Under the pieces are notes generated by a model. It saw only the letters and a list, made by a program, of their open reading frames with translations. It had not been told where the DNA came from and did no database searches. Source: Mesorhizobium loti R88b (GTDB lineage: Bacteria; Pseudomonadota; Alphaproteobacteria; Rhizobiales; Rhizobiaceae). From it: DNA of 64,000 nt. The position numbers were made by a program, and so were the translations under genes. The DNA lies in NCBI RefSeq assembly GCF_013170845.1, contig NZ_CP033367.1:6945001-7009000 (forward strand), in the 5' to 3' direction. Of this stretch, positions 1-41,882 are shown piece by piece (the stretch's first letter is position 1; each line of letters opens with the position of its first letter).

Positions 1-1250
1 TAGCGCTCCAGGAAGAACTGCAGCTGACTGCAATGGACGCCGAGTCCAAGGCGTCGACGTGCGATCTGAGCAAGAGCAGGTGGCAATGCGGTGATGATTT
101 TGCTTCGGTTGTAATCATACGGTGTACGGAACAATCGGCTGTAACCAGCAAAAATCTCATCGGCGCCCTCGCCCGTGAGTACGACTTTGTGCTCCTTCGA
201 AATCGCCTTTGCGAGCGTGAACATGGCGGTTTCGTTATGCATTCCAAGCGGATGTCCACGCAGGCGAACCAGCTCCGCTACAGCGTTGATATCGGAAGGT
301 TCTCCAATTGGGACGACCCGGTGAGTGAGCCCGAATTCGGCGGCGACCTCCATCGCATAGGCCGTTTCGTCATAATCGGGGGTCTCGACCTTGCCGGTAT
401 AGCAGACCGGACGGATTTGGGAGCGAGCGGATGCCTCATAGGCCAGGATGCTCGAGTCAAGTCCACCGGACAACAATGCGGCGACCGGTACGTCAGCCAC
501 CAGCTGACGTTCGACGGCGCTTCCAAATAGTCTCCTTATGTCGGAATAGTCCGGCTTCGATCGCGAAATTCGCGCGGACAGATTCCACCAACGTTCGGAC
601 GTGTGTCGCCCATTTCTTATTTCGAGGAGATGTCCGGGCTCTAACTTGGAGATCCCGGCGAACAGCGTTCTGGCGCCGACAACCGCGCGATAGGATAGAA
701 AGCTGAGCGCGCCGATCATGTCAGGTCCGTGCATTACGCCCGGCCAGCGAATGAGAGCGTTCGGCTGCGACGCAAACAGAAGCCCAACATCGCAAATCGT
801 GTAGTAGAGGGGTTTTACCCCCAAACGATCTCGGGCGATGAGAACAAGCGATTTCCGTGGATCGAAAAGCGCGAAGGCAAATATCCCGTCAAGGCGATTT
901 AGGAATGACTTTCCCCAAGCAATATAGCTAAGAATTAGAACCTCGGTGTCGGACACCGTCGAAAAGGAAAAGCCCATATCCCTCAATTCAGCTTTAATTT
1001 CCCGATAGTTGAATATCTCGCCGTTGTACGTTACCACCACTCCGGTATTGGCATCGCGATAGGGCTGATTGGCTCGAGAATGAGCGTCGACAATCGATAG
1101 CCGTCGATGCGCGAATGCTACCGATTGATTAATGTATAGGCCGCTGGCATCAGGTCCGCGATGAGCGAGAGCGTCAGCGCAACGCTCAACGGCCGCAGCA
1201 CAAACGGGTGTTCCCTCGTTTTTGAGGACTATCCCAAAGATTCCGCACAT
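1..1250 (-). CDS. Asparagine synthetase (glutamine-hydrolysing) family protein, 3' end outside window
   Basis: The protein begins MCGIFGIV, so Cys2 is the nucleophile of a class II glutamine amidotransferase domain. About residue 250 the synthase domain shows the PP-loop LLSGGLDSS that binds ATP. These enzymes make an amide from a carboxylate using glutamine nitrogen and an acyl-AMP intermediate. The reading frame runs off the left edge of the window, so about 416 residues are seen and the C-terminus is missing. It starts 32 bases after the methyltransferase gene and looks like the last visible gene of the phosphonomutase operon. Inference: it may amidate a carboxyl group of the operon's product rather than make free asparagine, since such stand-alone asnB-like genes are common in biosynthetic clusters. 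Confidence 0.85.
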   Translation of the reverse strand, partial: MCGIFGIVLKNEGTPVCAAAVERCADALAHRGPDASGLYINQSVAFAHRRLSIVDAHSRANQPYRDANTGVVVTYNGEIFNYREIKAELRDMGFSFSTVSDTEVLILSYIAWGKSFLNRLDGIFAFALFDPRKSLVLIARDRLGVKPLYYTICDVGLLFASQPNALIRWPGVMHGPDMIGALSFLSYRAVVGARTLFAGISKLEPGHLLEIRNGRHTSERWWNLSARISRSKPDYSDIRRLFGSAVERQLVADVPVAALLSGGLDSSILAYEASARSQIRPVCYTGKVETPDYDETAYAMEVAAEFGLTHRVVPIGEPSDINAVAELVRLRGHPLGMHNETAMFTLAKAISKEHKVVLTGEGADEIFAGYSRLFRTPYDYNRSKIITALPPALAQIARRRLGLGVHCSQLQFFLER

Positions 1251-1282
1251 TGGGGTCGCTCTCTTGGCACGAATAACGCCGA

Positions 1283-2197
1283 CTACGTGCTCGGCTTTTC
1301 GCCGATCATCTGGATGCAGCCATCGCCGAACCAGAAGCGGGCCAGCGGGTGGTCATAATGACGGTACATCGGAGCGAGAAAACGCCGAAGGTTATGGAAA
1401 TTTCTCGTATATCTTGAGATCCTGCGGATTTTCTCGAAGCCGCACTCGCCATACCAACCTCGGATTTGAGCCTCTGTGAAGGCGAACTCGTGATAGGTCG
1501 GCGCCTGGAAGCGATCCCGGATCGTCACGAACAAATCATCATCAAAAAGACTCCGAAAGAATTCGTTTTCGCCAGGTATATATTCCTTCTCTTCGCCGTC
1601 CTTTATTCTCAAGATCCAGTTGATGGCTTCGCGTGCGGTGGATGCATCCAGATTGTCAATGGAACTGCGGAATTGCTCGTCGCTTTGGTAGAGTTCTCGC
1701 AAGTGATTGATGCATCGGTAAATGACGCCGTTGGCGGTACCCATAATCGTCAAAAAGAAGCTGCCGCCGGGGCGGGTTACACGGGCAAGCTCTTCAAAGC
1801 CTTTTTTCGGATTGCTGGTGTGCGGCAAAACCCCTGCGCAATGGACAAAATCAAAACTGAAGTCGTCAAACGGCAGATCGAGCACACTACCAGCGACCAG
1901 TTCCGAGCGCGGCCCAAATCGGCTGAGCCGTTTGCGCGCGCAATCCATCCAATCATTGCTCAATTCAAGCGAAACAACGTTTCGTGCCCCCTTGTCGAGA
2001 AACGCATAGGACGCATTCGCGTTGGAGCCGCAGCCCGCGTCCAGGACATCAAGGCCGCGGAAGCTGCCGGTTGGCAGGCCGAAATATTCCTCCTCGATTA
2101 GAGAGACCAACCTGTCGAATATGTGGTCGTCATTCTCCTGCTGGCGCTGGTAGCGATCAAAGACGGTGCGAGTTTCGATCTCGAAAGAGTTTTCCAT
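1283..2197 (-). CDS. SAM-dependent class I methyltransferase
   Basis: A 304-residue protein with the SAM-binding motif I VLDAGCGSNANAS near residue 50, an acidic end of strand 2 (LELS), and the post-motif region FDFVHCAGVLPH followed by LARVTRPGG, as in Methyltransf_11/25 proteins. The start has a GGGAAGAG ribosome site. It lies 12 bases after the CDP-alcohol phosphatidyltransferase gene and 32 bases before the asparagine-synthetase-like gene, so it is very likely co-transcribed with them. The substrate cannot be read from the sequence. The operon suggests a phosphonate intermediate or its lipid or sugar carrier. The long C-terminal region after residue 190 is not recognised. Confidence 0.82.
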   Translation of the reverse strand: MENSFEIETRTVFDRYQRQQENDDHIFDRLVSLIEEEYFGLPTGSFRGLDVLDAGCGSNANASYAFLDKGARNVVSLELSNDWMDCARKRLSRFGPRSELVAGSVLDLPFDDFSFDFVHCAGVLPHTSNPKKGFEELARVTRPGGSFFLTIMGTANGVIYRCINHLRELYQSDEQFRSSIDNLDASTAREAINWILRIKDGEEKEYIPGENEFFRSLFDDDLFVTIRDRFQAPTYHEFAFTEAQIRGWYGECGFEKIRRISRYTRNFHNLRRFLAPMYRHYDHPLARFWFGDGCIQMIGEKPST

Positions 2198-2209
2198 GTA
2201 TTCTCTTCC

Positions 2210-2812
2210 CTATAGCTTTGTGAGCAAGGCGACAGATCCGGCTGCGGCGAGTGTAAGGTTGCCCAAGCGCAACGCACTGCCGGTACCCGGAAATTTGAAG
2301 TTTGAAAGATGCAGGACCGACAGCACAAACCCTGCACCGATCAATAGGTTGCCCAGGCCCTTCACCGGCAAGTGACGGTCGGCGACGAACAGCAATGCCA
2401 ACACGAAGAGGTTATTGTTCAACGGCAATCCTCTGCCGAATCCGTCAGCGTCCAGTCCGAACGTCGAAAAATAGCTGAGGCGCAGAGCCCCTGACAGGAT
2501 GAGGCAATTGGCAGCCAACAATGCGGGAACGGAGAACGCGTTGAAGGACAAAATGAGAACCGCTGGAAAGACGGCTGCGTAGACCAAATCAAGCAGCCCG
2601 TCCAACGTGCCACCCAGCTGTGCCATCAAAGCGGACCGGTTCGGGGAACTCTTCGCAACCATGCCGTCGGCATCATCCGCCAAAAGAGCCCACAAGCCGA
2701 AACAGATGCCAATCTCGAAGCGCCCGATCAAAGCAAAGTAGATCGCCGTGGTGGCCAAGATCAGCCCAAGGGCCGTAATGGCATTTGCAGCATCGAACAG
2801 ATAGCGGATCAT
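2210..2812 (-). CDS. CDP-alcohol phosphatidyltransferase family membrane protein
   Basis: A 200-residue hydrophobic protein with several predicted membrane helices. Residues 46-75 carry the catalytic signature of the family: D46-x2-D49-G50-x2-A53-K54, then G67-x3-D71-x3-D75. Two points differ from the usual motif: Lys54 replaces the common Arg, and the spacer between the halves is longer. Family members move a phospho-alcohol from a CDP-activated donor onto an alcohol acceptor in the membrane. The start codon overlaps the stop of the nucleotidyltransferase gene (ATGA) and uses a GGAGG site inside it, which implies translational coupling. Inference: the nucleotidyltransferase makes a CMP-activated phosphonate and this enzyme transfers it to a lipid or polyol. 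Confidence 0.83.
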   Translation of the reverse strand: MIRYLFDAANAITALGLILATTAIYFALIGRFEIGICFGLWALLADDADGMVAKSSPNRSALMAQLGGTLDGLLDLVYAAVFPAVLILSFNAFSVPALLAANCLILSGALRLSYFSTFGLDADGFGRGLPLNNNLFVLALLFVADRHLPVKGLGNLLIGAGFVLSVLHLSNFKFPGTGSALRLGNLTLAAAGSVALLTKL

Positions 2813-3636
2813 CCTCCTACCCCCGCAACGGCGGCCGGCGCGCCGGCACTGTGTCTGTGAGGTCGCTCGAGGGCGAAAATTCTTTCCGCCACCCGCAGGT
2901 CCTGTTCACTGTCGATCTCGTACCATCGCAAATCGTCACATCGCGCCGCGGCGAGTTGCAGCCCGCGCTGCTCGATGAGATGCGCGAGCAACTCCTCCGT
3001 ATAGGCTTTGATCGCGCCCGAGCCGATCAGGTCGTGGAGGACCGGGACGATCACCGTTTGGAGTTCGGCGCCAGAGAACCGGATGAGGTTCATCATCTTG
3101 AAGAGCACCGGGGTGCCTGATGCCAGATTTGCTGCCGTCTGCTTCAACCGGACTTCGGATATGAAGCCGTTGCCGGAAAGGACGGCCGCGGACCCTTCCA
3201 TGGATGGATCGAACGGCGCGACCGCGGCGGCATTGGCCGCCTCCACCCTGATCAGGTGGCGCAGCGCATCTTCTTCGAAGAAGACGTCACCTTCGAGGAG
3301 ATAACAGTCGCCGGAAAGAAGCGTGTCGCGTGCCAGCCAGAGCGAGTAGGCGCTCCCTGTCTTGTCGAAGACCGAGGACTCGACATAGTTGATTTCAAGT
3401 CTGCCGAAGCGTTTGCCACAGGCATGGCGTATGGCATCCTTGCGATAGCCGACAACAATCGTTACCTCTTCGACTCCCACCGCCTGAAGGTTCCACAGTG
3501 CATTGTGAAGTATCGGTGTGCCGTTGACTTCGACGAGGGGCTTGGGACACAGATCGGTCAGCGGACGCAGGCGGGAGCCGAAGCCGGCAGCGAGAATGAC
3601 GGCTTTCCTGGGAGCAGCGGGAGGCATCTCATTCAC
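2809..3636 (-). CDS. NTP transferase (sugar-phosphate/phosphocholine-type nucleotidyltransferase)
   Basis: A 275-residue Rossmann-like nucleotidyltransferase. Residues 14-27 hold the nucleotide loop ILAAGFGSRLRPLT and residues 31-39 PKPLVEVNG, both standard for the NTP_transferase family. An acidic metal site LLEGDVFFEED follows near residue 113. Its closest functional relatives are LicC-like CTP:phosphocholine and CTP:phosphonate cytidylyltransferases, judged by size and by pairing with a CDP-alcohol transferase. The start is set by AGAGGTGA just upstream. Family knowledge: phosphonate cytidylyltransferases (PntC type) activate 2-aminoethylphosphonate as a CMP ester for phosphonolipids. That this protein does so here is inference from its neighbours, the phosphonomutase gene above all. 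Sugar-1-phosphate activation is the main alternative. Confidence 0.83.
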   Translation of the reverse strand: MNEMPPAAPRKAVILAAGFGSRLRPLTDLCPKPLVEVNGTPILHNALWNLQAVGVEEVTIVVGYRKDAIRHACGKRFGRLEINYVESSVFDKTGSAYSLWLARDTLLSGDCYLLEGDVFFEEDALRHLIRVEAANAAAVAPFDPSMEGSAAVLSGNGFISEVRLKQTAANLASGTPVLFKMMNLIRFSGAELQTVIVPVLHDLIGSGAIKAYTEELLAHLIEQRGLQLAAARCDDLRWYEIDSEQDLRVAERIFALERPHRHSAGAPAAVAGVGG

Positions 3637-3657
3637 CTCTTTCGTTGTGTTGCGGTG

Positions 3658-4848
3658 TCATTTCCAGGCGTTGAGGAATTCGACGAGCCGGGCCAGGCCG
3701 GTCGCGAGTTTTTCAGGTGGAATTCCATAGGACAGGCGCAGGCCGGCGGGGTCGCCGAACGCGGTGCCCGACACAGCTGCGACGCCAGCTTCGGCAAGCA
3801 GACCCGTCACGATATCGTCGGCTGTCGTTGAGGCGCCGTCTTCCGCTCCCGGTCGCAGCAGATGGGAAAGGTCGAGATAGAAATAAAAGCCCCCTTGCGC
3901 CCTGGCGACCGGGACACGCGTCAACGAAGAAAGCACGTCGAGACCGACCCGTCTGGCGCTTGTCAGGCGTGAACGCAGCTTGCCTTCATAGTCCGAGCCA
4001 CCCCTTTGCAAATGGGCGAGCACCGCGTGCTGGGCAATTACGTTTGGATTCGAAGTGGTGTGCGATTGCAGGGCCTTGACGGCATTGATCACCCCTTTTG
4101 GACCCGCCAGATAACCGATGCGCCAGCCGGTCAATGCTAGCGATTTGCTGAAGGAGTTGACGATCAGCGCGCGTGCTCGAATTTCGGGAGCGACCGAGAC
4201 GATCGGATGGTGGGTATGACCCCCATGCACGAAGTCACCATAGCACTCGTCGAAAATGATCCACAGGTTGCGGCTGACCGCCAATTCAGCGATGGCCATC
4301 AGAGTCTCAACATCGTAGACCGCACCGGCCGGATTGCTGGGCGTGTTGACGACGATCGCCCGCGTGCGTTCGGTGACCGCCTCCTTGATGTGTTCGGGGC
4401 GCGGGACGTAACCGTTGGACTTGGTGTCGACGAAGACCGGTGTGCCGCCGGCGATTAGCACCTGGGCCGGAAACGTTGTCCAGTAGGGCGCCGGGATGAT
4501 GACCTCGTCGCCCGGATTTAGCAGCACCATTGCGGCATTGAACAAGGCCTGCTTCGCTCCGGACGTCACGGCAACTTCCTCGGCCTTCCAGATCTGTCCG
4601 GTATCGAGGGAGATCTTCCGCGCCAGTGCCTCGCGCAACTCCACCATGCCAACGCTATCAGTGTAGCGATTGACGCCCTTATTGATGGCGTCGATCGCGC
4701 CGTCGCGAATCGTGGGTGCAAGCTCGCTCCAGATCTCGCCGGCGGTCAGATCGATGATCTCCTTGCCAGCATCGGCCGCCGCTTTTGCGGCAGCGCGCGC
4801 CGCGGCGGTACCCGATGTACCGAACAGATTTGTCCGATGCGCAAGCAT
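3658..4848 (-). CDS. Class I/II PLP aminotransferase (aspartate-aminotransferase-like)
   Basis: A 396-residue fold-type I aminotransferase. The PLP lysine lies in NSFSKSLALTGWR and substrate-binding features include VNTPSNPAG and FDECYGDF. I chose the start at 4848 because CAGGAG lies at the right distance; an upstream ATG at 4878 lacks a site. It lies 47 bases after the phosphonomutase gene. PEP mutase strongly favours phosphoenolpyruvate, so a pulling step is needed. No phosphonopyruvate decarboxylase gene is visible, and an aminotransferase next to pepM could pull by making phosphonoalanine, as known in phosphonoalanine-peptide producers. This assignment is inference; aspartate or alanine transamination is the default family activity. 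Confidence 0.85.
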   Translation of the reverse strand: MLAHRTNLFGTSGTAAARAAAKAAADAGKEIIDLTAGEIWSELAPTIRDGAIDAINKGVNRYTDSVGMVELREALARKISLDTGQIWKAEEVAVTSGAKQALFNAAMVLLNPGDEVIIPAPYWTTFPAQVLIAGGTPVFVDTKSNGYVPRPEHIKEAVTERTRAIVVNTPSNPAGAVYDVETLMAIAELAVSRNLWIIFDECYGDFVHGGHTHHPIVSVAPEIRARALIVNSFSKSLALTGWRIGYLAGPKGVINAVKALQSHTTSNPNVIAQHAVLAHLQRGGSDYEGKLRSRLTSARRVGLDVLSSLTRVPVARAQGGFYFYLDLSHLLRPGAEDGASTTADDIVTGLLAEAGVAAVSGTAFGDPAGLRLSYGIPPEKLATGLARLVEFLNAWK

Positions 4849-4895
4849 GTGCGCTCCTGTTTTCGTTTTGCTTTTCAAAAGACGGGCTGGGCCTG

Positions 4896-5804
4896 CTACC
4901 GCACGCTGGTCGCCGTCTGCGGCAGATATTTCTCTTCCGCCGCTGAGAGTTCCTGGTAGTTGAGGAGATCGAAGAGTTCGTCGAGCGTCGCCACCTCGTC
5001 CTCGATACCGGCGATACTTTCTTCGCGGAGGATGCGGTCGCAGACCTGGCGCATGGCCGAGATCGCCGCGCGCATGTTATGGTTCGCCCATATGACCGTG
5101 GAGATTCCGGCCGCCCGATACGCGGAGACCGGTGTGCGGTAATATTTCGTAGGCACGATCACGACCGGAAGGTGGTTCTGCCAGGCGCGCGTGAAGGCGA
5201 AAATCTGCTCAGCGTTGGACTTGCGGGAATGAATCAGAATAGCATCGGCGCCGGCCTCAGCGTAGGCTTGTGCTCGCGCCAGCGCCTCATCCTCTCCGCG
5301 GCCGGCGATGAGCGCCTCGATCCGGGCGACCAGAACGAACTCCGCATCCGGCACTTGGTCCTTCACCGCCTTAAGCCGGCCGCAGAACTCGGGAATATCG
5401 GCCAACGGGTGCCGATCACCGATGAACGAGTTCATTTTCGGGAACGCCGTGTCCTCGAGACATATGCCGCTCGCGCCATGTTGGCGCAGCTTGCGGGCGA
5501 CCAAACGGGCATTGTTGAAGTTCCCGAACCCGCTGTCCCCGTCGACGAGGACTGGAATGTCCACCGTGTCGGAAATTCGCTCAACGACATCGACGAGTTG
5601 GGACCAGGAAGCTTCGTTCGCATCTCGATATCCGAGACTGGATGAAATCGAGAGGCCGGACGCCCAGAGCGCCTTGAAGCCAGCGCGCTCGGCAATCGCC
5701 GCCGAAAGGCCGTCATGAGCCTCCATTGCGAAGGCGAGTTCACTGGACGCGATCATTCGGCGCAAGCTCTCTCGCGTCTGCGCACCAGACTGCCTCTCCA
5801 CCAT
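4896..5804 (-). CDS. pepM: Phosphoenolpyruvate phosphomutase (PepM), C-P bond formation
   Basis: A 302-residue protein of the isocitrate lyase/PEP mutase superfamily. Visible features are the nucleophile region SLGYRDANE (Asp61), the Mg site LVDGDSGFGN (88-95) and the signature EDTAFPKMNS (117-126). PEP mutases usually read EDK-x5-NS; here Thr replaces Lys but the diagnostic Asn-Ser is kept, which argues against the oxaloacetase, isocitrate lyase and 2-methylisocitrate lyase branches. The enzyme isomerises phosphoenolpyruvate to phosphonopyruvate, the entry step to almost all natural phosphonates. The start is firm: a perfect GGAGGTGA lies six bases upstream. It is the first gene of a six-gene operon behind a NifA-type promoter. 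Phosphonopyruvate hydrolase is the main alternative. Confidence 0.85.
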   Translation of the reverse strand: MVERQSGAQTRESLRRMIASSELAFAMEAHDGLSAAIAERAGFKALWASGLSISSSLGYRDANEASWSQLVDVVERISDTVDIPVLVDGDSGFGNFNNARLVARKLRQHGASGICLEDTAFPKMNSFIGDRHPLADIPEFCGRLKAVKDQVPDAEFVLVARIEALIAGRGEDEALARAQAYAEAGADAILIHSRKSNAEQIFAFTRAWQNHLPVVIVPTKYYRTPVSAYRAAGISTVIWANHNMRAAISAMRQVCDRILREESIAGIEDEVATLDELFDLLNYQELSAAEEKYLPQTATSVR

Positions 5805-5937
5805 GCGGTCTCACCTCCACCAACGCTATCCAGCCGACAAGCCTGTCATCGCTGCCGCACGAAGTACTTTCAGTGACGCACGCTCTGCCCGCCGATTGGC
5901 GATCCGCCACTGTCGTGCACCCATACAGAATCAATGA

Positions 5938-6055
5938 AGCAAGGCGCGTGCCGAATTGGCGAACCACCTGCGCCGCACCAGTTCTCCATACCGGCGCGCC
6001 AGGTCCCCTCTCGACCATTTGTCGGGCTTCCGACATCCTCGTCCAACTTCGGACA
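5938..6055 (-). promoter_or_regulatory. Sigma-54 (-24/-12) promoter with paired NifA upstream sites for the pepM operon
   Basis: Reading the minus strand, CGGCACGCGCCTTGCT (5953 to 5938) matches the -24/-12 consensus except for the first base. Upstream lies a canonical TGT-N10-ACA palindrome at 6020-6035 (TGTCGGGCTTCCGACA) and a second, weaker copy at 6040-6055 with CGT in the first half. The two sites are spaced exactly 20 bases. The next gene downstream is pepM at 5804. The stretch 5805-6312 holds no gene that I can support; this control region is its content. Confidence 0.68.
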
Positions 6056-6312
6056 CAAGAAGGGTCGCGGGAGTGGCTATTCGTCTACGCCATGGCGGCC
6101 GTTCCGGGCTGCCGATCAACGGTCTCAAGCGAGATGGCCAGGGAGCGGAAGACCGGCGGTCCGTGCAGGCAAGGACGGACGACGTTGGTCTTCGATCCCG
6201 GCAATCGCCAGTCGGCTTGATTATTTACCCATGCCTCATGGACGAAGTGTCGAGCATCGGCATACGAGATTTCAACACCCCCAGGGGCCCGCCCCAAGCT
6301 TCAAGCCTTGAC

Positions 6313-7356
6313 CTAACCAAGCGACTTGTTGATCGCTGGAATGATCTTGTCTCCCCAGAGCTCAATCTGGCGTAGCATCGTCTTTTGGTCGAAATCTCCC
6401 AATTGGGTCTGAATTGCGATCTGGTCCGGCTTCAGGATACTTATCTCTTCCAGCAGGCGATCGATGACGCGACTTACGCTGCCGATCGGCAGGTTCTGGC
6501 GCATGGTCTCGAACGACAGATCCTGCTTCGTCGGTGTTTCCTGCAGCAGATAGCCGTCCCGGCTCTGCTGGCGGCGCTGATGAAGTGCTTCAGATAGCCG
6601 GCGCTGGAAGCGGGCGTTGTCGAGATAGCTGTCGAACTCCGCCTGATCGTCGCTGGCATAGCAGCAGCGCAGAAGCCCTACCTTGGCGGCAGTGACATCC
6701 TTACCCCGCGAGGCCGCTGCTGCCTCGATGGTCTCACGCAGCGTTCTCAAGTTTTCCAAGCCGTTGTGGAACGCCGTGACGAAAAGATTGTGGCCCTCAC
6801 GATAGGCCCGGCACATGCTTCGCGCGGACCCGCAGGCGATCCAGATCGGTGGGGCTGGCCTTTGGATGGTGCGCAGCGAAATCGCCGTTAAAGGTATTTT
6901 CTCATACTGGCCATTGTGCTCGAAGACCTTCTGGTTAAGGCCCTTGAGAAGGATATCCAGGTATTCCGCAAACACGGCCGGCGCCTGATCGACATCGACG
7001 CCGAAGCGCTCGAACTCGAACTGCTGGTATCCCGAGCCGACGCCGAGTTCGAGGCGGCCGTTCGAAACGATATCGGCAAAGCCGATCTCGGAGAGCAGGC
7101 GCTGCGGTTGATATAGCGGCAGCACACACACACCGGTGCCAAGGCGAATGGTGCTCGTAAGGCCAGCACAGTGCGCCACCATCATCAAGGGCGAGGGAAC
7201 CAGGCTGTAATTGTTGAAGTGGTGCTCGGCGAACCAAGCGGTGTTGAAGCCAGCCTGCTCCGAAGCGATTGTCTGTTCTATGGAATTACCGATGACGCTG
7301 TCGCACGATTGATGATAGCCTCGCTGGGCCGCCAAGATGAACGTCGCGAATTCCAT
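6313..7356 (-). CDS. LLM-class flavin-dependent (luciferase-like) monooxygenase
   Basis: A 347-residue TIM-barrel protein of the bacterial luciferase family. It shows the N-terminal pattern EQAGFNTAWFAEHHF with the conserved His-His pair, RLGTGVCVLPLYQP, and NGRLELGVGSGYQQFEFERFG typical of the F420/FMN-binding pocket. The start at 7356 is chosen because GAGG lies at the right distance and because the family begins with a short strand just before EFATFIL; an in-frame extension to 7470 has no family match. It is the last gene of the P450 cluster. It would use reduced flavin and oxygen to oxidise an unknown, probably small organic substrate; the partner flavin reductase is not seen here. Confidence 0.82.
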   Translation of the reverse strand: MEFATFILAAQRGYHQSCDSVIGNSIEQTIASEQAGFNTAWFAEHHFNNYSLVPSPLMMVAHCAGLTSTIRLGTGVCVLPLYQPQRLLSEIGFADIVSNGRLELGVGSGYQQFEFERFGVDVDQAPAVFAEYLDILLKGLNQKVFEHNGQYEKIPLTAISLRTIQRPAPPIWIACGSARSMCRAYREGHNLFVTAFHNGLENLRTLRETIEAAAASRGKDVTAAKVGLLRCCYASDDQAEFDSYLDNARFQRRLSEALHQRRQQSRDGYLLQETPTKQDLSFETMRQNLPIGSVSRVIDRLLEEISILKPDQIAIQTQLGDFDQKTMLRQIELWGDKIIPAINKSLG

Positions 7357-7606
7357 GGCGTGTCCCTCGTTTACACAAAGTGGCCAATCAAGCCTTCGAC
7401 TTGTGCCGATTGCGGGTGGGCCGCGGTATCGATCCGGCCTGGCGGCGACGTAGTCGACGATCTTGCGCAAAGCCGCTTATCGTTCGGCGGCCGCAGGCAA
7501 GCGCCAAAACCTGGCTAGTGATTCGACCCTGATGACGAGTTTTCCGTCACCGATGAAGACGATCACTTGGCAAGCCGTGCTTGGCACGTGCCTTGCAGCC
7601 GCAGTC

Positions 7607-9247
7607 TCAATCCTCGAACCTCGTCGGCTTCGACGAACCGCAACCGGTCGCCGGCGAACATTCGGTTGGATTTTCTTGATCGGTTGGCTGGGCGTTTCGC
7701 GCGTCAGCCAACGAGGTCAAGCCGCCGTCCACGTAGAGGGTCGAGCCGTTTACGTATGAGGCATCAGGCGAGGCCAGAAAGAACACTGCCTCGGCGACGT
7801 CTTCGGGCTCTCCCATCCGCCCCATCGGGATGCGCCGTTTGATCGCTACGGAATCGATGCAGCCGGACTCGATCAGCTGAGCAATGTCAGGCGTACGGAT
7901 ATAGCCAAGAGCGACGGTGGCCGTTCGGATGCCGACCGACCCGAGTTCGGCCGCCATGCACCGGGTCAGAATGTTCATACCCGCCCTGGACGCCCCATAG
8001 GCATGGCGCGGCACGAAGGGCAGGAAACTATTGATCGATCCAAGATTGAGGATTACGCCGCCGGCGTCCATCGACTTGATCGCCTCGCGCGCGCAGGTGA
8101 AGGTGCCGGTGAGATTGACGTCCAGTACCCGCTCGATCTGTCGCGGGATTTCGATCCCTCGCACAAACGTATCGGCAATAGCAGCACAGTTGACGAGGAT
8201 CTCGATGCGACCGAAGCGCCCCCGTATTTCCTCGAACAGGGCCACCACCTCGCTCTCGACCGCCAAGTCGGCGGATTTCGCCACGTGCCTGCCGCCCAGC
8301 AAACCAGCGAGTTCTGCCGCCCCAGCACCATCTTTATCAGCAATCACGACTGTGTCGGAGTTCGCGGCAAAGCGGCGAACGACGGCGGCGCCTATACCGT
8401 TCGCGCCGCCCGTCACGACCACTGTGCGCGCGCCAGTTCGTTCGGCCGGCCGGAAGAGTTCGGCTCGAGGCGTCTCGTCGACCGGCGGGTGCGCGTCGCC
8501 CGGCTGGTTGAACGACATCCAACCGCCGTCGACCGTCAGCACCGATCCTGTGATGTAGCCCGTCTGTGCGCTGGCCAAAAAACGCACGGCCCGAGCGATC
8601 TCGTCGGGGCGCGCCATTCGCCCCATGGGCACGCGGCGGCGCACGGCCGCGAGGTCCATCTTGCCCGCACGTTCCAGTTCCGCCACCATCGGCGTGCGCA
8701 CGTATCCTGGCGCTACCGCCGTTACGCGGATGCCGCGCGAGGCCCACTCGCATGCAAGCGATCTCGTGAGAGCGATCAAGCCTGCCTTCGAGCTGGCATA
8801 GGCGTTGCGCTTGGGATTGCCGAGCACGCCCGCCAGCGAAGCGACGTTGACAATGGCAGCGCCGGGCTGCATGCGGCTCGCCGCTTCGCCGGCCATGATG
8901 AAAGGCCCGATCAGATTTGTTGCCAGCACGCGTCGGAAGGCCTCGAAACCGGTGTCGATAGTCGCAGCCATGGCGGGTCCTATCGCCGCGTTGTTGACGA
9001 GAACATCGATTTTCGCGAACTGCGCTTCGATGTGGCCGTATAGGGCGACAATGTCCTCTTCTCGTGAGACATCGCATTCGAGGCCCAGATGCGGATGGCC
9101 GAGACCGCCGGCCAGTTCAAGAACGCCGCTGCCAGGAAGGTCCACCGCAACGACGATGTCTCCATCGGCGGCAACGATCTCGACCAGCGCACGGCCGATT
9201 CCGCCTGCCGCTCCCGTTATGATGACGACCCGTCCTGCCTGCTTCAT
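7607..9247 (-). CDS. Tandem (double-domain) short-chain dehydrogenase/reductase
   Basis: A 546-residue protein made of two complete SDR domains in one frame. Domain 1 (about 1-250) has TGAAGGIG for NAD(P) and the YASSK catalytic motif. Domain 2 (about 280-525) has TGGANGIG but YGASR where YxxxK is expected, so the catalytic lysine is replaced by arginine and this half may be inactive, altered or structural. Each half ends with the usual SDR tail (ITGSVLTVDGGW and VNGSTLYVDGGL). The start at 9247 has GAGAGG upstream; the longer open frame to 9388 does not look coding. It belongs to the P450 cluster and would oxidise or reduce a hydroxyl made by the P450. Confidence 0.86.
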   Translation of the reverse strand: MKQAGRVVIITGAAGGIGRALVEIVAADGDIVVAVDLPGSGVLELAGGLGHPHLGLECDVSREEDIVALYGHIEAQFAKIDVLVNNAAIGPAMAATIDTGFEAFRRVLATNLIGPFIMAGEAASRMQPGAAIVNVASLAGVLGNPKRNAYASSKAGLIALTRSLACEWASRGIRVTAVAPGYVRTPMVAELERAGKMDLAAVRRRVPMGRMARPDEIARAVRFLASAQTGYITGSVLTVDGGWMSFNQPGDAHPPVDETPRAELFRPAERTGARTVVVTGGANGIGAAVVRRFAANSDTVVIADKDGAGAAELAGLLGGRHVAKSADLAVESEVVALFEEIRGRFGRIEILVNCAAIADTFVRGIEIPRQIERVLDVNLTGTFTCAREAIKSMDAGGVILNLGSINSFLPFVPRHAYGASRAGMNILTRCMAAELGSVGIRTATVALGYIRTPDIAQLIESGCIDSVAIKRRIPMGRMGEPEDVAEAVFFLASPDASYVNGSTLYVDGGLTSLADARNAQPTDQENPTECSPATGCGSSKPTRFED

Positions 9248-9430
9248 ATGAACCTCTCCGCAGCCAGCGTCAGAGATATCGACGCGAGTCAGCCGCAAGA
9301 CCGGTCGCGGACGTCCTGGTGACGGCGAGTTTCCATACCGGGTAGACGTGTTGCGTTCCGCGACCGCTCCCGCGACGCGGCTCCGCAATTGGGAGCCTTG
9401 GAAAGCATTGTGGTGACATGCATGGCATTT

Positions 9431-9970
9431 TCATTTTGATGACGAGCTGCGGCGCTTCCTGAGCGCGTAAACCGGGTCATTGGGATGCGCTGCTCCGATC
9501 GGTTGCCGCAAGCCGAACCGTTCTGCCTCGGGGACCGCTGGTGGGGTCTGCTCTTCGATCCAATCGTAAACGACGGTCCGTTCGGCGATGCGCCACGCCC
9601 CTTCCCTCTTCTGAAAAAGATCGCAGTAACGGCCGCAGAGAAGCACCTGGCGTGCTTCTCCGTCATTGTCTGGTCCGCGTTGCAGCGCGGTGAAATAGCT
9701 TTCGACCACTGCCTCCGGCGGGTCGATGAATTCGATCAAGACGTTCGTGATCTGGTGGATTAAGCGCGGTCCGGTTTTGAAGAGACCAAGCGCAAACTCA
9801 AAGAAGCCCTCGGCTGAGCCGCGATAGGCACCGTGATTGTCATGCGCATCGGGCCAATATGCACTGCGCAGCGCAGCCTCATCCGCGCGGTCTATGCCGC
9901 GGCAGTACCGATAAAGGCAGTCGCGGATCGCCTCGCGGTCGCGCAGTTCGGTGATTTTTGCCTGGCCCAT
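9431..9970 (-). CDS. SnoaL-like / NTF2-fold protein (nuclear transport factor 2 family)
   Basis: A 179-residue protein of the SnoaL_4/NTF2-like fold. Typical features are [24 protein letters not shown] at the N-terminus, an acidic WPDAHD loop and RTVVYDW near the end of the cone-shaped fold. Such proteins include small hydratases, isomerases and ring-hydroxylating-dioxygenase beta-like subunits, and often sit with oxygenases acting on aromatic or terpenoid substrates. The start at 9970 gives the usual family length; the site upstream is weak (GACAGAG). It lies between the ferredoxin and SDR genes of the P450 cluster, with the same strand and no other gene between. Exact role unknown. Confidence 0.78.
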
Positions 9971-10181
9971 CGCTCTGTCGCAAATTTGAGATTGGAAGAG
10001 GCGTTTCGTGCCTCTAGGTGCGTGCAAGGTCGAACCGATCGGCAACTGAAGAAGCCAGAACGGAGACGAACTTCACGTGTTGCGTGCGTGTCATTGAGGT
10101 CTCGACGCCGGAGAGAAGGTAGGCAGGGAAGCGGCCGGACATCTTGCTTTGCGGTGTGGGGCCACGTCTCGTCGATTCCAC

Positions 10182-10427
10182 CTAAGCTTCCCCAGTTCTT
10201 GGTTGCATGGCGGCTGGTCCGAACCGCGCTGCCGATGTGCGATCGACTTCCAGCGCACGTTCGGGGCAGGATCGCGCGCCTTGTGACGCAAGCAGTTGCT
10301 CCCCCTCCGCAACCTGAATGTCACCGGGCAGGATGTAGCCATCGTCATCAAGCTTGAAGATGTCCGGCGCTTGCGCCCAGCATCGCGCGTGACCCTGGCA
10401 TTTGGCATTGTGGACGATAATGCGCAT
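10182..10427 (-). CDS. Small 3Fe-4S-type ferredoxin, P450 partner
   Basis: An 81-residue ferredoxin with C10-x5-C16 and a late CPERAL motif (Cys54), the three-cysteine arrangement of ferredoxins that feed bacterial P450s (CxGxAxC, then APDIF, then CP). The start at 10427 is supported by TGGAGG upstream. It follows the P450 gene by 38 bases, so the pair is almost surely co-transcribed and the protein most likely passes electrons to that P450. The C-terminal 20 residues (RTSAARF onward) are not part of the fold and may be a tail. Confidence 0.86.
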   Translation of the reverse strand: MRIIVHNAKCQGHARCWAQAPDIFKLDDDGYILPGDIQVAEGEQLLASQGARSCPERALEVDRTSAARFGPAAMQPRTGEA

Positions 10428-10465
10428 AGCGCTGCCTCCATTGTCTTGGCATGGCTCGGCGATGG

Positions 10466-11683
10466 TCATGACCAGTCCAAGATCAGATTTTCGATCCCGA
10501 ACACATGGCCGCCACAGGTGATGGGCGCTGTACCCTCCTTGATCCGGAAGGTCGGTATGCGCGCCAGCCACTCCTCCAGGCCAATGACAATCTCGCGCCG
10601 GGCAAGGTGTGAGCCAAGGCAACGGTGGGGACCATAGCCAAAGGCGGCGTGGCGGTTGTGCTCTCGCGCCAGATCGACCGTGTTGGGGGATTCGAATTCC
10701 TCCGGGTCGCGATTTGCAATCATCGTGGCGCACGAAACATAGTCTCCCTTTCGGATCGGCGCGCCTTCGAAGTCGATATCTTTCGTAGCCACGCGGATCA
10801 ACTGAATGGGCGGATAGGCCCGCAGCAACTCTTCGGTTGCGAGCAGGATGCGGTCCGGTTCGCTGCGCAGCAGTTCCTGATCCTTGAGGTTGCGCGCTAG
10901 ATAAGCCAGGTCAAAGCCAATAGCTGCTGCGACAGTGTCAAGTCCCGCGACGAACACAAGCACGCCGATGCCACGGATCTCCCCGTCGGTTAGCCGGCGG
11001 CCTTCGATCTGTGCCTGCACGATGAAGGTCATGAGATCGTCGACCGGATCCTTGCGGCGATTGGTTGCAAGTTCATCGATGAAAGCCACAATCTTGCGGG
11101 CAGCCACAGGTCGTTCCACATCGTCGCCGTGGAGCAGATCTTTCGCCCAGCCGACAAATGTATCGAGTCCCTGATCCGGCAACCCCAGAAAGCGAAGGAA
11201 GATGCTGACAGTGAACGGAAAGGCAAAATCCTTCATGACGTCGCAGCTCGTGGCCGATGCGGTGATCCGGTCGATCAGGGCTATCGCTCGCTCACGGACA
11301 GCCGGTTCCAGTGCCGTCACCCGCTTGGGCGAAAGCAGCGGACTGAGCAGTGAGCGAAATGCGCCATGGGCCGGTGGATCGAGCTCAAGCGGGATCGTCG
11401 GCCAGGTTTCGCCCAGTATGGAGGAGAAGATGCTGCGATGGCTGGAAAAAGTTTCAGTGTCCTGCAGCACCTTACGCTGGTCTGCGGCGCGGGTGATGAC
11501 CCAGGTGCCCCGGCCATCTTGCGTGTTGTAGGGGGAATAGAAGATCGGAGGCCCGTCATGGGCGCAAGCGACGGCTGCGTGTGGATCCCCGTTGGGCGTT
11601 GGTGGCATGCCTGGCGATGTGAACAGGCTGAAGTCTCTCACCATTTCGGGCGGGACATGATCTGGAACCGGGTTGATCGCCAT
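10466..11683 (-). CDS. Cytochrome P450, symbiosis-island type (CYP127-like)
   Basis: A 405-residue soluble bacterial P450. The I-helix oxygen motif is AGLDT (246-250), the K-helix ExxR is E285-L-L-R288, and the haem loop is FGYGPHRCLG (348-357) with Cys355 as the haem ligand. The start has AGGAG at good distance. It heads a cluster with a ferredoxin, a SnoaL-like protein, a double SDR and a flavin monooxygenase, together a likely oxidative pathway. Rhizobial symbiotic regions carry several P450 families; the resemblance to CYP127A is from memory of gene setting, not alignment. It is not the gibberellin operon, since the CYP112/114/117, cyclase and synthase genes are absent. Confidence 0.88.
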   Translation of the reverse strand: MAINPVPDHVPPEMVRDFSLFTSPGMPPTPNGDPHAAVACAHDGPPIFYSPYNTQDGRGTWVITRAADQRKVLQDTETFSSHRSIFSSILGETWPTIPLELDPPAHGAFRSLLSPLLSPKRVTALEPAVRERAIALIDRITASATSCDVMKDFAFPFTVSIFLRFLGLPDQGLDTFVGWAKDLLHGDDVERPVAARKIVAFIDELATNRRKDPVDDLMTFIVQAQIEGRRLTDGEIRGIGVLVFVAGLDTVAAAIGFDLAYLARNLKDQELLRSEPDRILLATEELLRAYPPIQLIRVATKDIDFEGAPIRKGDYVSCATMIANRDPEEFESPNTVDLAREHNRHAAFGYGPHRCLGSHLARREIVIGLEEWLARIPTFRIKEGTAPITCGGHVFGIENLILDWS

Positions 11684-11707: not shown

Positions 11708-12133
11708 CTAACCAGGCCGCGCACCATGGCATCTTGGCCATCCAGCAAGCTTGTTGCCCTCTTGGCCAGACCGCTGCCTGTCCGCCAAAGAGCCGACGAG
11801 CGAAATCGTCGGAGACGCGGCGTTTTCCAGCTTCGAACGGCGAACCGGAATGAAGCTCTTGCTCCACAGCGGTTCGGGGTCGATCATCTCTTCGAGGATA
11901 TCCGCAGCGCGGCACGCGAAAGACCGGCTGGCCGCCGAAGTGCTCGCCGGTCTCCTCAAGCGCCGGCGAGAGGACAGGAGCAAGCACATTCTGGTCGAAC
12001 CGTATCTGCAGGTCGATCGGTGGCCATTGGCCGGTGCCGGGCGGTTGTGACGGTGACGCCAGTCACGCCGGTCGATATTGCATTCCGCGGGCAATGCCCG
12101 TTTCGGATAGAAACTGAACTGACGCTGACCTGA
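11708..12133 (-). pseudogene. Decayed nifQ N-terminal fragment behind a NifA-type promoter
   Basis: Translation starts well (MSGQRQFSF at 12133, GGAAG upstream) but the frame then shifts. The middle part in another frame reads GQWPPIDLQIRFDQNVLA, then PVLSPALEE, which lines up with SQWPPTDQAAAFDRHVLA and CVFYLAFEE of the intact NifQ at 15.2-15.9 kb; in the first frame again RAADILEEMI resembles RADLRDVMT. DNA similarity is also visible around CAATGGCC and TGTGCTTGC. I infer a nifQ copy with at least two frameshifts and no cysteine-rich end. It lies between the promoter at 12.2 kb and the P450 gene, so transcription may pass through it. Confidence 0.5.
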
Positions 12134-12210: not shown

Positions 12211-12333
12211 TTCAAAAGTCGTGCCAACGGCGCGGAAAGAGCCCTGCAGGAGATTTTCTACATATCATTCAACAGCTTGAACGAATGCGCAGCCGCAAGC
12301 CTGGCGGAGCAAAGCCGTGTCCCGGACATGACA
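12211..12333 (-). promoter_or_regulatory. NifA site plus -24/-12-like promoter upstream of the P450 cluster
   Basis: Minus-strand reading: TGGCACGACTTTTGAA (12226 to 12211) has a perfect -24 element; the -12 element is TTGA in place of TTGC. A canonical TGT-N10-ACA site lies at 12318-12333, 92 bases further upstream, inside the longer shared motif CGGGTTTGTC-N8-GACACG. The same layout and spacing recur at 16.9 and 19.1 kb. Confidence 0.6.
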
Positions 12334-13790: not shown

Positions 13791-15245
13791 ATGGAGTCCT
13801 CAGCAAGCCTGCTTCAGCGTCAGAAGCAATCGTTGGTTTTGACGCCGCAAATGATGGAATCCATTCGCCTGTTGCAACTGGCGCATCCCGAACTGCATCA
13901 GTTCGTCGAGCAGGAAATCGAGAAGAACCCCTTTCTGGAACGGGCATCAAACCGGGCGCCGAAGGACATTCCGTCGATTTCGGCCGGGAAGCCGCGCATC
14001 GGGCCGACCACGGGCGGAATATCGGATCAGGCCTCGCAGTGGAAATCAATCCGCGGCAAAAACAATGTCCAACCGGGGGGAAACCATGCGTTCGAAGATA
14101 CCTGGACGTCCATCGAAACATTGCACGACCATGTCGCTCGTCAGATCGCTCTCAGCGCATTCGCGCCGCTGGAGCGGCGAATAGCTGGCGAGCTTGCCGG
14201 TCATCTGGAAGACACCGGATACCTTCCGGTGAACCTTGCGGAACTGGCCCGCAGCCTGAATGTCCGGGAGGCTGTTGTGGAACGGGTTCTCGGAACCTTG
14301 CAGCAGTTCGATCCACCGGGTATTTTTGCGCGAACTCTCAGCGAATGCCTTGAGATACAATTGCGGCAGCTAGACAGATTCGACCCGGCAATGGCAGCGC
14401 TGGTCGCCAATCTTGAAGCGCTGGCGCGACGCGATTTTCAATCATTGAAGCGCCATTGCGGTGTCGATGAAGACGACCTTCTCGACATGTTGCACGAAAT
14501 CCGCGCGCTCGATCCCAAGCCTGGAAATCGATTCCAATCCGGAGGGCCTGAATCGATCATTCCCGACGTCTTGGTCCAGCCCTCTCCCGGAGGTGGGTGG
14601 CAAATCGAACTCAATCCAGACACGCTGCCCAGGCTGCTGATGAACCAAAACTATTTTGCCCAGGTCTCCCGCCTAAGCGCCCAAAATTCGAAAGACCAGT
14701 CATTTCTCAACGAATGCCTCCAAAACGCGAACTGGCTAATCCGCAGCCTTGATCAGCGCGCCAAGACGATCCTCAAGGTAGCGGCTGAAATCATCCGCCA
14801 GCAGGACGCCTTTTTTGAACATGGGGTCGCCCACCTGCGGCCTCTCAATCTCAGGACTGTCGCGGATGCGATCAACGTGCACCAGTCGACGGTAAGCCGG
14901 GTAACGTCGAACAAGTACATGCTGACCCCGCGCGGCGTGTTCGAACTGAAGTATTTTTTCACTGTCGCGATCGGCTCCTCCGAAGGCGGCGACGCGTACT
15001 CCGCCGAAGCTGTGCGCCATCAAATCAAGGCGATGGTTGCCGTGGAATTGCCCGACGAAGTGCTTTCCGACGACGACATCGCCACGCGGCTCAAGGAAAC
15101 CGGGATCGACATTGCTCGCCGCACCGTTGCGAAATATCGTGAGGCGCTGAACATCCCGTCCTCCGCGCGACGTCGCCGGGAAAAGCGCGTGCGGCTTCGA
15201 TGCCAATCAAGCCCGGACGGCGGCGGCGACGAAAGCAGCTCTTAA
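13791..15245 (+). CDS. rpoN: RNA polymerase sigma-54 factor RpoN (second, symbiotic copy)
   Basis: A 484-residue sigma-54. The N-terminus has the glutamine-rich activator-binding region (LLQRQKQSLVLTPQMMESIRLLQL read in parts), the core-binding domain follows, and the RpoN box ARRTVAKYREAL sits at 442-453 for the -24 element. The acidic middle linker is short. It is co-directional with prxS and probably shares its promoter, giving NifA-dependent self-supply of sigma-54 in the nodule. A housekeeping rpoN with its usual neighbours (an ABC gene and a hibernation factor) is not here, so this is the extra symbiotic copy. Its last bases overlap the end of nifQ on the other strand by four. Confidence 0.96.
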   Translation: MESSASLLQRQKQSLVLTPQMMESIRLLQLAHPELHQFVEQEIEKNPFLERASNRAPKDIPSISAGKPRIGPTTGGISDQASQWKSIRGKNNVQPGGNHAFEDTWTSIETLHDHVARQIALSAFAPLERRIAGELAGHLEDTGYLPVNLAELARSLNVREAVVERVLGTLQQFDPPGIFARTLSECLEIQLRQLDRFDPAMAALVANLEALARRDFQSLKRHCGVDEDDLLDMLHEIRALDPKPGNRFQSGGPESIIPDVLVQPSPGGGWQIELNPDTLPRLLMNQNYFAQVSRLSAQNSKDQSFLNECLQNANWLIRSLDQRAKTILKVAAEIIRQQDAFFEHGVAHLRPLNLRTVADAINVHQSTVSRVTSNKYMLTPRGVFELKYFFTVAIGSSEGGDAYSAEAVRHQIKAMVAVELPDEVLSDDDIATRLKETGIDIARRTVAKYREALNIPSSARRRREKRVRLRCQSSPDGGGDESSS

Positions 15246-41707: not shown

Positions 41708-41770
41708 AATCTTGCTGCGCGATTTGTTGAAGATACCTGAGGCTCCGGCGATTTCCGCGCTCTCTTGGCT

Positions 41771-41785
41771 TGGCACGGCTATTGC
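41771..41785 (+). promoter_or_regulatory. Sigma-54 (-24/-12) promoter of dctA
   Basis: TGGCACGGCTATTGC is a perfect -24/-12 element about 98 bases before the dctA start and about 64 bases after the nearer DctD site. Confidence 0.88.
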
Positions 41786-41882
41786 GGTCAACAACGCAGC
41801 AGCGTTCGACCGGGGCGCCGCGATGGGAGAAGCCGCGGGGAGGAACAGCCCGCCCCAAACCGGTCAGGGAGAGAAAACTTAC

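Follow-up and report, generated by a model that had tools for sequence, protein, structure and literature searches.

What would a rhizobium make with a phosphonate operon on its symbiosis island, and which cells would profit from the product? The question arises from the window analysed here, that is the whole stretch of 64,000 nucleotides from Mesorhizobium loti R88b (positions 6945001-7009000 of contig NZ_CP033367.1, G000:C1 in our numbering, in a genome of 7.2 Mb), at whose left end the upstream part of such an operon lies on the minus strand. An earlier note on this DNA had described six minus-strand genes starting with pepM, which encodes phosphoenolpyruvate (PEP) mutase, and had proposed that bacteroids use them to make a carbon-phosphorus (C-P) compound under NifA control. 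The operon does not stand alone as a unit, as import and C-P breakdown genes adjoin it, and we slightly favour the reading that it forms the NifA-dependent synthetic half of a mobile phosphonate cluster of the make-and-break kind, by which one compound is both made and broken down. Production of a phosphonate by the operon is highly probable, and a CMP-activated phosphonate ester is its probable product; these gradings, like those given below for NifA control and for a rhizopine-like role, are judgements and not computed values.

Judged from sequence, the stretch is a symbiosis island of the R7A type, as the earlier note had placed it, because the operon proteins are 100% identical to those of M. 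loti CJ3sym (locus L006) and the promoter at 12211-12227 on the minus strand is letter-identical to the published msi332 site of ICEMlSymR7A (Table 1, PMC3538637). By the same kind of evidence, the operon genes are pepM (msi327), aatA (msi326) and asnB (msi323) of the R7A paper, and the numbering suggests that the CobD-like gene beyond them is msi322 and the next methyltransferase gene msi321. Sullivan, Brown and Ronson (2013) fused R7A pepM, aatA and asnB each to lacZ and measured 827, 2456 and 862 units in nodules, compared to 7.7, 16.2 and 22.0 in a nifA2 mutant and less than 20 in broth (PMC3538637; here and for the other papers cited, the parts examined). NifA dependence had thus already been published for the R7A orthologues, and these data contradict the lack of nodule expression that the earlier note had named as a sign against its proposal. 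The examined parts of the same study do not name a phosphonate pathway, the two phosphonate passages of an M. huakuii transcriptome deal with phnN and phnG and not with pepM (PMC3973600), and no phosphorus-31 nuclear magnetic resonance work on an R7A-type phosphonate system was found among the matches listed from the open-licence PMC literature.

All six genes were confirmed, in the order given below, with gaps of at most 32 bases using the present starts and of up to 47 bases using the annotated starts of an orthologue. Positions preceded by L005 refer to the sequence extending past the window, in which position 15001 is position 1 of the window.

4896-5804, minus strand: PepM, phosphoenolpyruvate mutase (msi327 orthologue; TIGR02320 equivalog)
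3658-4878, minus strand: aspartate-type aminotransferase, aatA (msi326 orthologue; PF00155)
2809-3636, minus strand: nucleotidyltransferase (PF00483/PF12804)
2210-2812, minus strand: CDP-alcohol phosphotransferase (family motif and fold)
1283-2197, minus strand: S-adenosylmethionine-dependent methyltransferase (PF08241/PF13649)
1-1250, minus strand: AsnB-like glutamine-dependent amidotransferase, N-terminal two thirds (full gene of 630 aa at L005:14358-16250)
L005:12505-14214, same strand, outside the window: CobD-like protein of 569 aa

PepM reached 357.6 bits with TIGR02320, exceeding the cut-off of 319.55, while the other listed models stayed below theirs, and its best PDB match is the PEP mutase 1m1b; the equivalog score supports its assignment as a PEP mutase. 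The aatA product scored below the cut-offs of the aspartate aminotransferase models, and an aminotransferase comes after PepM in many diverged loci. By analogy with PnaA, an aspartate-type aminotransferase able to pull PepM (PMC11867202), we propose that it would convert phosphonopyruvate to phosphonoalanine. The arrangement is PnaA-like in that an AAT-family enzyme stands beside pepM and phosphonopyruvate decarboxylase (Ppd) is missing, a likeness judged from gene context. No protein of the R88b genome passes the Ppd cut-off, the best scoring 32.1 bits against 312.5, so that a Ppd pathway in this strain was rejected and transamination is the likely pull on PepM. In locus L030, which has no nucleotidyltransferase gene, a thiamine pyrophosphate enzyme does pass the Ppd cut-off (342.8 bits), indicating that the decarboxylase branch occurs in nearby relatives and not in R88b; this enzyme family lies near pepM in 10 of the 16 loci without the nucleotidyltransferase, and also in L070.

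Those 16 belong to the 80 best-matching PepM loci of our search for relatives, the remaining 64 having a nucleotidyltransferase gene near pepM. Among 50 PDB matches of the R88b nucleotidyltransferase, a nucleotidyl transferase family protein and two mannose-1-phosphate guanylyltransferases come first, LicC (1jyk) is fourth and PntC (6pd1) seventh, and its orthologue is annotated as phosphocholine cytidylyltransferase family; we propose a CTP:phosphonate cytidylyltransferase of the PntC/LicC kind. The CDP-alcohol transferase gave no Pfam match and no significant match in the PDB sequence search; it carries both the motif DxxDGxxAR...GxxxDxxxD and the family fold, with phosphatidylserine synthase as the closest structure. 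Full-length AsnB scored 393.0 with TIGR01536 (cut-off 267.1), and two distantly related AsnB-like families were found near such operons. AsnB was rejected as the end of the operon, since the CobD-like protein starts 143 bases further on. The C-terminal part of the latter scored 170.9 bits with TIGR01140, below the cut-off, and best matches 6oux (threonine phosphate decarboxylase-like) in the PDB, while Pfam detects only a trace of an NTP-transferase in the N-terminal part, which looks like a decayed domain of that family. Both domains are present in many of the 77 listed relatives, P0017 and P0021-P0024 among them. On the strength of 6oux and TIGR01140 we first favoured the CobD-like enzyme as a phosphonoalanine decarboxylase leading to 2-aminoethylphosphonate, an idea demoted when loci L115 and L116 were seen to hold both it and a phosphonopyruvate hydrolase (PPH). 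Gene families and gene order thus bear out the claim of phosphonate biosynthesis, and the family assignments appear to settle the kind of chemistry, leaving the identity of the product aside.

Past the CobD-like gene, all on the strand of the operon, the locus continues as follows.

L005:11972-11988: -24/-12 element of a second methyltransferase, identical to the published msi321 site, with an upstream activator sequence (UAS) at 12072
L005:9463-10164: PhnF (171.0 bits over a cut-off of 156.8)
L005:8767 down to 3271: Opp-type ABC importer with two permeases, a family 5 solute-binding protein and two ATPases
L005:2016-3245: type I phosphodiesterase
L005:1246-1947: second PhnF (189.3 bits)
L005:553-1008 down to L097:11148: PhnG, PhnH, PhnI, PhnJ, PhnK, PhnM and PhnL, in this order (PhnG at L005:553-1008 is the same gene as L097:16553-16975)

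The C-P lyase core phnGHIJKLM is complete, with PhnJ at 478.2 bits, PhnG, H, K, L and M over their cut-offs, and PhnI at 495.8 bits with PF05861. The island phnJ is the second copy of the genome, 21.9 kb from pepM and on the same strand; the other PhnJ is encoded at 2050144-2050959. The search for the same gene order in relatives suggested by the earlier note showed that both the synthetic order and the adjoining breakdown genes recur in Mesorhizobium and beyond. Module order is kept at 64-86% identity beside pepM, the aminotransferase and the nucleotidyltransferase in three plasmid-borne copies, extending from the permease to PhnI in Sinorhizobium meliloti M270 (accessoryC), from the permease to PhnK in Rhizobium gallicum IE4872, where nifH lies about 9 kb from pepM, and from the solute-binding protein, at which the examined stretch stops, to PhnL in S. 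mexicanum ITTG R7. S. meliloti AK83 holds pepM, the aminotransferase, nucleotidyltransferase, CDP-alcohol transferase, a formyltransferase, AsnB and the CobD-like enzyme together, and continues with the importer, an alkaline-phosphatase-family protein, PhnF and PhnM. In 16 hand-picked plasmid records, out of 85 with pepM, C-P lyase subunits or PPH were found, within the stretch examined, in four (M270, R. gallicum, S. mexicanum and R. indigoferae). Within flanks of 10 kb, an importer, phosphodiesterase or C-P gene was present in 34/64 loci of the nucleotidyltransferase class and in 3/16 others (p 0.023), a link that is weaker partly because the importer of the R88b island itself sits beyond 10 kb.

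A second, putative breakdown gene takes the place of C-P lyase near pepM in many other Mesorhizobium strains. We searched 146 genomes of the genus, 41 with PepM at 72% identity or more and 105 others, and found near pepM a paralogue with 36-41% identity to PepM that is PPH-like. The PPH model outscored the PepM model by at least 83 bits in all ten paralogues tested (of 14 fetched), five exceeding the TIGR02321 cut-off of 374.4 and five lying at 358.9-373.1, and an aminotransferase gene stands beside the PPH-like gene in 10 of the 14 stretches. Locus L116 holds both halves, from PPH to PepM, within 16.4 kb: PPH, aminotransferase, LysR regulator, solute-binding protein, ATPases, permeases, phosphodiesterase, CobD-like protein, CDP-alcohol transferase, nucleotidyltransferase, aminotransferase and PepM. 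In L117 a calcineurin-like phosphoesterase adjoins the importer. Within 25 kb of PepM, a PPH-like gene is present in 23 of the 41 genomes; five others have an additional PhnJ at most 50 kb away (in one of them, G019, the PepM concerned is a second copy), and no genome belongs to both sets. Anywhere in the genome, a PPH-like gene occurs in 24/41 PepM genomes and 1/105 others, and an extra phnJ in 10/41 and 1/105. PepM genomes are also richer in nodC (37/41 over the cut-off compared to 64/105; Fisher p 0.0006, kinship ignored), and pepM and nifH share a contig in 23 genomes, at most 50 kb apart in 16 of these, and lie on different contigs in 13.

From these genes we infer the chemical steps, the export, one substrate common to both halves, and an ecological role, as follows. 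PepM would convert PEP to phosphonopyruvate, which the aspartate-type aminotransferase would pull to L-phosphonoalanine, as PnaA does; the nucleotidyltransferase would make CMP-phosphonoalanine, from which the CDP-alcohol transferase would move the phosphonate onto an alcohol, and the methyltransferase, AsnB and the CobD-like enzyme may tailor the phosphonate ester so formed. The ester would be exported from the bacteroid and imported by relatives with the same element through the adjacent Opp-type ABC importer, opened by the adjacent phosphodiesterase, and its phosphate freed by C-P lyase in R88b or by aminotransferase and PPH in many other Mesorhizobium. Since importer and C-P breakdown genes adjoin the operon, a diffusible and recaptured compound appears likelier than a lipid or surface group, and the strongest hint that the halves share a substrate is that two unrelated breakers alternate beside the same synthetic core.

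Several observations weigh against this make-and-break reading. The R7A mutants in pepM, aatA and asnB were all Fix+ and fully effective (PMC3538637). Neither breaker was found near PepM in 13 of the 41 genomes, 11 of which belong to the 16 with PepM of at least 97% identity; island 131-3-5, of this type and checked by annotation, keeps the importer and the phosphodiesterase. PhnJ occurs in 132 of the 146 genomes, hence possession of C-P lyase is not private, and only the importer and phosphodiesterase could be. All four nodC-negative PepM genomes have PPH beside pepM, and the methanotroph Methylosinus (L027) has phnGHIJKLM there, so the pairing is not nodule-specific and seems wider than nodulation. 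For R. gallicum and S. mexicanum, the search for a CDP-alcohol transferase gene around pepM gave none, though it also missed an annotated one in the Agrobacterium plasmid locus L092, and the R88b PepM reads EDTAFPKMNS where the survey motif is EDKXXXXXNS. The p-values, moreover, overstate independence because the genomes share elements by transfer. Lastly, the promoter arrangement described next was found in 0/13 plasmid copies from Rhizobium, Sinorhizobium, Agrobacterium and Bradyrhizobium.

Control by NifA involves three elements in the window.

5938-5954, minus strand: candidate sigma-54 -24/-12 element TCGGCACGCGCCTTGCT, by matrix score
6020-6035, minus strand: candidate NifA UAS TGTCGGAAGCCCGACA, exact TGT-N10-ACA
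12211-12227, minus strand: published NifA promoter of msi332 (P450), from which transcription could read through to pepM

A candidate for the -24/-12 element that the earlier note had placed upstream of pepM is present and near the consensus TGGCACG-N4-TTGCW, reading TCGGCACG-CGCC-TTGCT at 5954-5938 on the minus strand. It scored 8.7 bits and ranks 15 among all window positions on both strands, with a matrix trained on all but one of the 16 -24/-12 sites published for the island, of which the lowest reaches 17.9 bits and some lie inside the window and hence outrank the pepM site by construction. At position 2 the site has C where every one of the 15 training sites has T, and it also departs from them at one spacer base; it scores 11.2 bits with a softer matrix and is unaltered in 9/9 aligned island relatives amid flanking indels. 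Of the two TGT-N10-ACA sites that had been claimed, one is exact (TGTCGG-N4-CCGACA at 6035-6020, 65 bases upstream of the -24/-12 element; exact in 4/9 island relatives), and the second was rejected, as the nearest candidate is a TGT-N11-ACA at 5927-5911 that falls downstream of the -24/-12 element.

Better sites occur upstream of diverged Mesorhizobium copies. CTGGCATGGCTCTTGCT or close variants were found in L036, L037, L038, L041, L043 and L044, five of the six having two UAS and L036 lacking an exact one. On pMLa of MAFF303099, CTGGCATGGCGCTTGCT and two UAS precede pepM, and in Mesorhizobium AR10 TTGGCACGACTTTTGAT and one UAS do so; the loci with a near-consensus promoter are L036-L038, L041, L043, L044, L094 and L110. 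Composite sites, defined as a -24/-12 element of at least 10 bits with the softer matrix and a UAS 50-180 bases upstream, were detected in 14/98 PepM upstream regions compared to 55/6000 random windows from the same loci; all 14 are from Mesorhizobium and several are near-identical. NifA control seems to have been recruited within this genus. In the R7A study the three genes were classed among those without NifA/RpoN promoters, and direct activation was judged highly unlikely (PMC3538637). The sites found here make it less unlikely than published, although they do not prove it, and we regard direct NifA control of the pepM operon as moderately probable. A sigma-70 scan between the P450 gene set and pepM gave no promoter, and terminators were at chance level, which leaves read-through from the msi332 promoter as a possible route. 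Across the window, TGT-N10-ACA is enriched (17 against 6.3 expected; 0/100 shuffles held as many). Two strong sigma-54-like sites have no assigned gene, at 7581-7597 (plus strand, 21.3 bits), just beyond the end of an SDR gene and pointing antisense into it, and at 41770-41786 (plus strand, 18.1 bits).

An alternative that we consider unlikely, and nevertheless the best of those weighed, is a bacteroid phosphonolipid or surface decoration, in which CMP-phosphonoalanine would be passed onto diacylglycerol or a glycan and the neighbouring importer, phosphodiesterase and C-P genes would only recycle head groups of degraded lipids or scavenge phosphonate from the environment. It would suit the resemblance of the CDP-alcohol transferase fold to phosphatidylserine synthase, and the pairing of this enzyme with a nucleotidyltransferase has been termed phosphonolipid logic in a lichen Nostoc (PMC5987646), while surface phosphonates are predicted for most pepM clusters (PMC6697681). 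A weak UgpB-like solute-binding protein and an annotated glycerophosphodiester phosphodiesterase near some pepM copies point the same way. The recurrence of phosphonoalanine-type breakdown genes and phosphodiesterases beside the operon argues against it, as do the two plasmid copies that keep the importer, phosphodiesterase and C-P lyase and in which a search of limited sensitivity found no CDP-alcohol transferase.

Quite improbable is a diffusible bioactive phosphonate, for example an antimetabolite of the phosphonoalanine amide or ester type that acts on competitors or plant enzymes, with catabolic genes for self-protection or phosphate recovery. Streptomyces phosphonoalanine peptides are antimicrobial (PMC11867202), and AsnB and the methyltransferase could serve as tailoring enzymes; on the other hand, no peptide ligase or resistance gene was recognised among the island genes scanned, and the breakdown genes are linked across lineages.

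It is very improbable that the operon serves housekeeping nitrogen metabolism, with aatA and asnB supplying aspartate and asparagine, an EDT-type PepM without a working mutase, and NifA acting indirectly. AsnB does exceed the asparagine synthase cut-off, the change from EDK to EDT would suit a lost activity, and the R7A authors considered NifA control indirect (PMC3538637). However, in an alignment of 82 PepMs (that of the window and those from the 80 best loci) position 116 varies, 38 having K, 34 S and 10 T, R88b among the last, whereas D58, D85, D87, E114, K120, N122, S123, R159 and H190 (M. edulis numbering), which we take to be catalytically important, are kept in 80-82 of the 82, and K120, N122 and S123 in all. 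The aminotransferase and nucleotidyltransferase also accompany PepM outside nodulators, as in Methylosinus. EDKXXXXXNS has been used as a PepM filter in a published phosphonate survey (PMC6697681); it would discard 44 of the 82 aligned PepMs, and surveys filtered by this motif miss many rhizobial phosphonate clusters. Least probable of all is that genes for making and for breaking phosphonates, unrelated in function, gathered by chance in shared mobile elements. Metabolic genes do accumulate in accessory regions, and only 34 of the 64 nucleotidyltransferase-class loci (3 of 16 others) have an importer, phosphodiesterase or C-P gene within 10 kb; however, the two breakers exclude each other near PepM, where they lie at 5-25 and 20-44 kb, and the order is conserved across three genera.

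Under the make-and-break reading, the compound might serve as a phosphonate rhizopine: bacteroids would invest PEP and CTP in an ester of phosphonoalanine from which free-living kin bearing the same symbiosis element recover phosphorus, carbon and nitrogen by way of a dedicated importer, phosphodiesterase and C-P breaker, and which neighbours lacking the right importer and phosphodiesterase could not open. We hold this role only tentatively and think it doubtful, its odds being lowered by the presence of PhnJ in so many genomes, as the breaker alone is not private. Neither a link between rhizopines and phosphonates in substance nor the pairing of making and breaking was found among the matches listed from the open-licence PMC literature, within which the compound, if this is true, would apparently be the first opine-like mediator with a C-P bond. 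It would also constitute an overlooked nodule phosphorus channel in at least two versions, with C-P lyase or with PPH, and nodules may then export phosphorus in a form that favours kin. Genes strongly expressed in nodules but without a symbiotic phenotype would gain one coherent and testable purpose, and the matter would bear on rhizobial cooperation, nodulation competitiveness and phosphorus cycling under legumes.

Some further observations concern neighbouring genes and other pepM copies. At 6313-11683 on the minus strand lie LLM, double SDR, NTF2-like and P450 genes, to which the annotation of an orthologue adds a ferredoxin; this set accompanies pepM in L093, L104 and L106, and three of its five genes do so in L109, running opposite to pepM in L104, L106 and L109. 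On Agrobacterium pAt2 (L092), pepM, the aminotransferase, nucleotidyltransferase and CDP-alcohol transferase occur with ornithine cyclodeaminase, alanine racemase and cysteine synthase-like genes, and the same pepM match recurs in several plasmid records from Agrobacterium and from R. rhizogenes. Beside a full-length pepM, M. waimense (L044) carries another pepM-like stretch, split in two, at about 6285-7100, and on p53363 of B. guangxiense pepM is accompanied by a short remnant of an aminotransferase gene. The pepM of Agrobacterium vitis (L111) has a citrate-synthase-like neighbour and seems to belong to another pathway.

Among known systems, the agrocinopine opines of Ti plasmids are taken up by an Opp-type importer and opened by a phosphodiesterase that acts on their phosphodiester, a logic shared with the R88b cluster, whose compound would differ in being made by bacteroids and not by transformed plant cells, and in having a C-P bond. 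On the synthetic side, the phosphonoalamide pathway likewise joins PepM to an aspartate-type aminotransferase as the coupling enzyme (PnaA/PnaD; PMC11867202), whereas in R88b no ATP-grasp ligase was seen and the nucleotidyltransferase and CDP-alcohol transferase stand in its place. In the Pnt pathway, pepM lies beside a LicC-kind nucleotidyltransferase (PntC), a kind to which the nucleotidyltransferase beside pepM in R88b may belong; R88b differs in having no Ppd over the cut-off and an aminotransferase of class I/II (PMC6697681). The phosphonolipid cluster of a Nostoc lichen cyanobiont shares pepM, an NTP transferase and a CDP-alcohol transferase in a symbiont, but has ppd and AEPT (PMC5987646). 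For the breakdown side, phosphonoalanine degradation by Variovorax Pal uses PPH, an aminotransferase, LysR and a transporter, and a similar set with a PPH-like gene stands beside pepM in the relatives, in which it is joined to the synthetic operon and accompanied by a phosphodiesterase (PMC10574752). Closest in plan is the rhizopine mos/moc system for 3-O-methyl-scyllo-inosamine, in which synthesis in the nodule is controlled by NifA and the producer typically carries the catabolic genes (PMC10107442); the R88b candidate, known here from its genes, would in contrast be a phosphonate, encoded by unrelated genes, and its breakdown would yield phosphorus.

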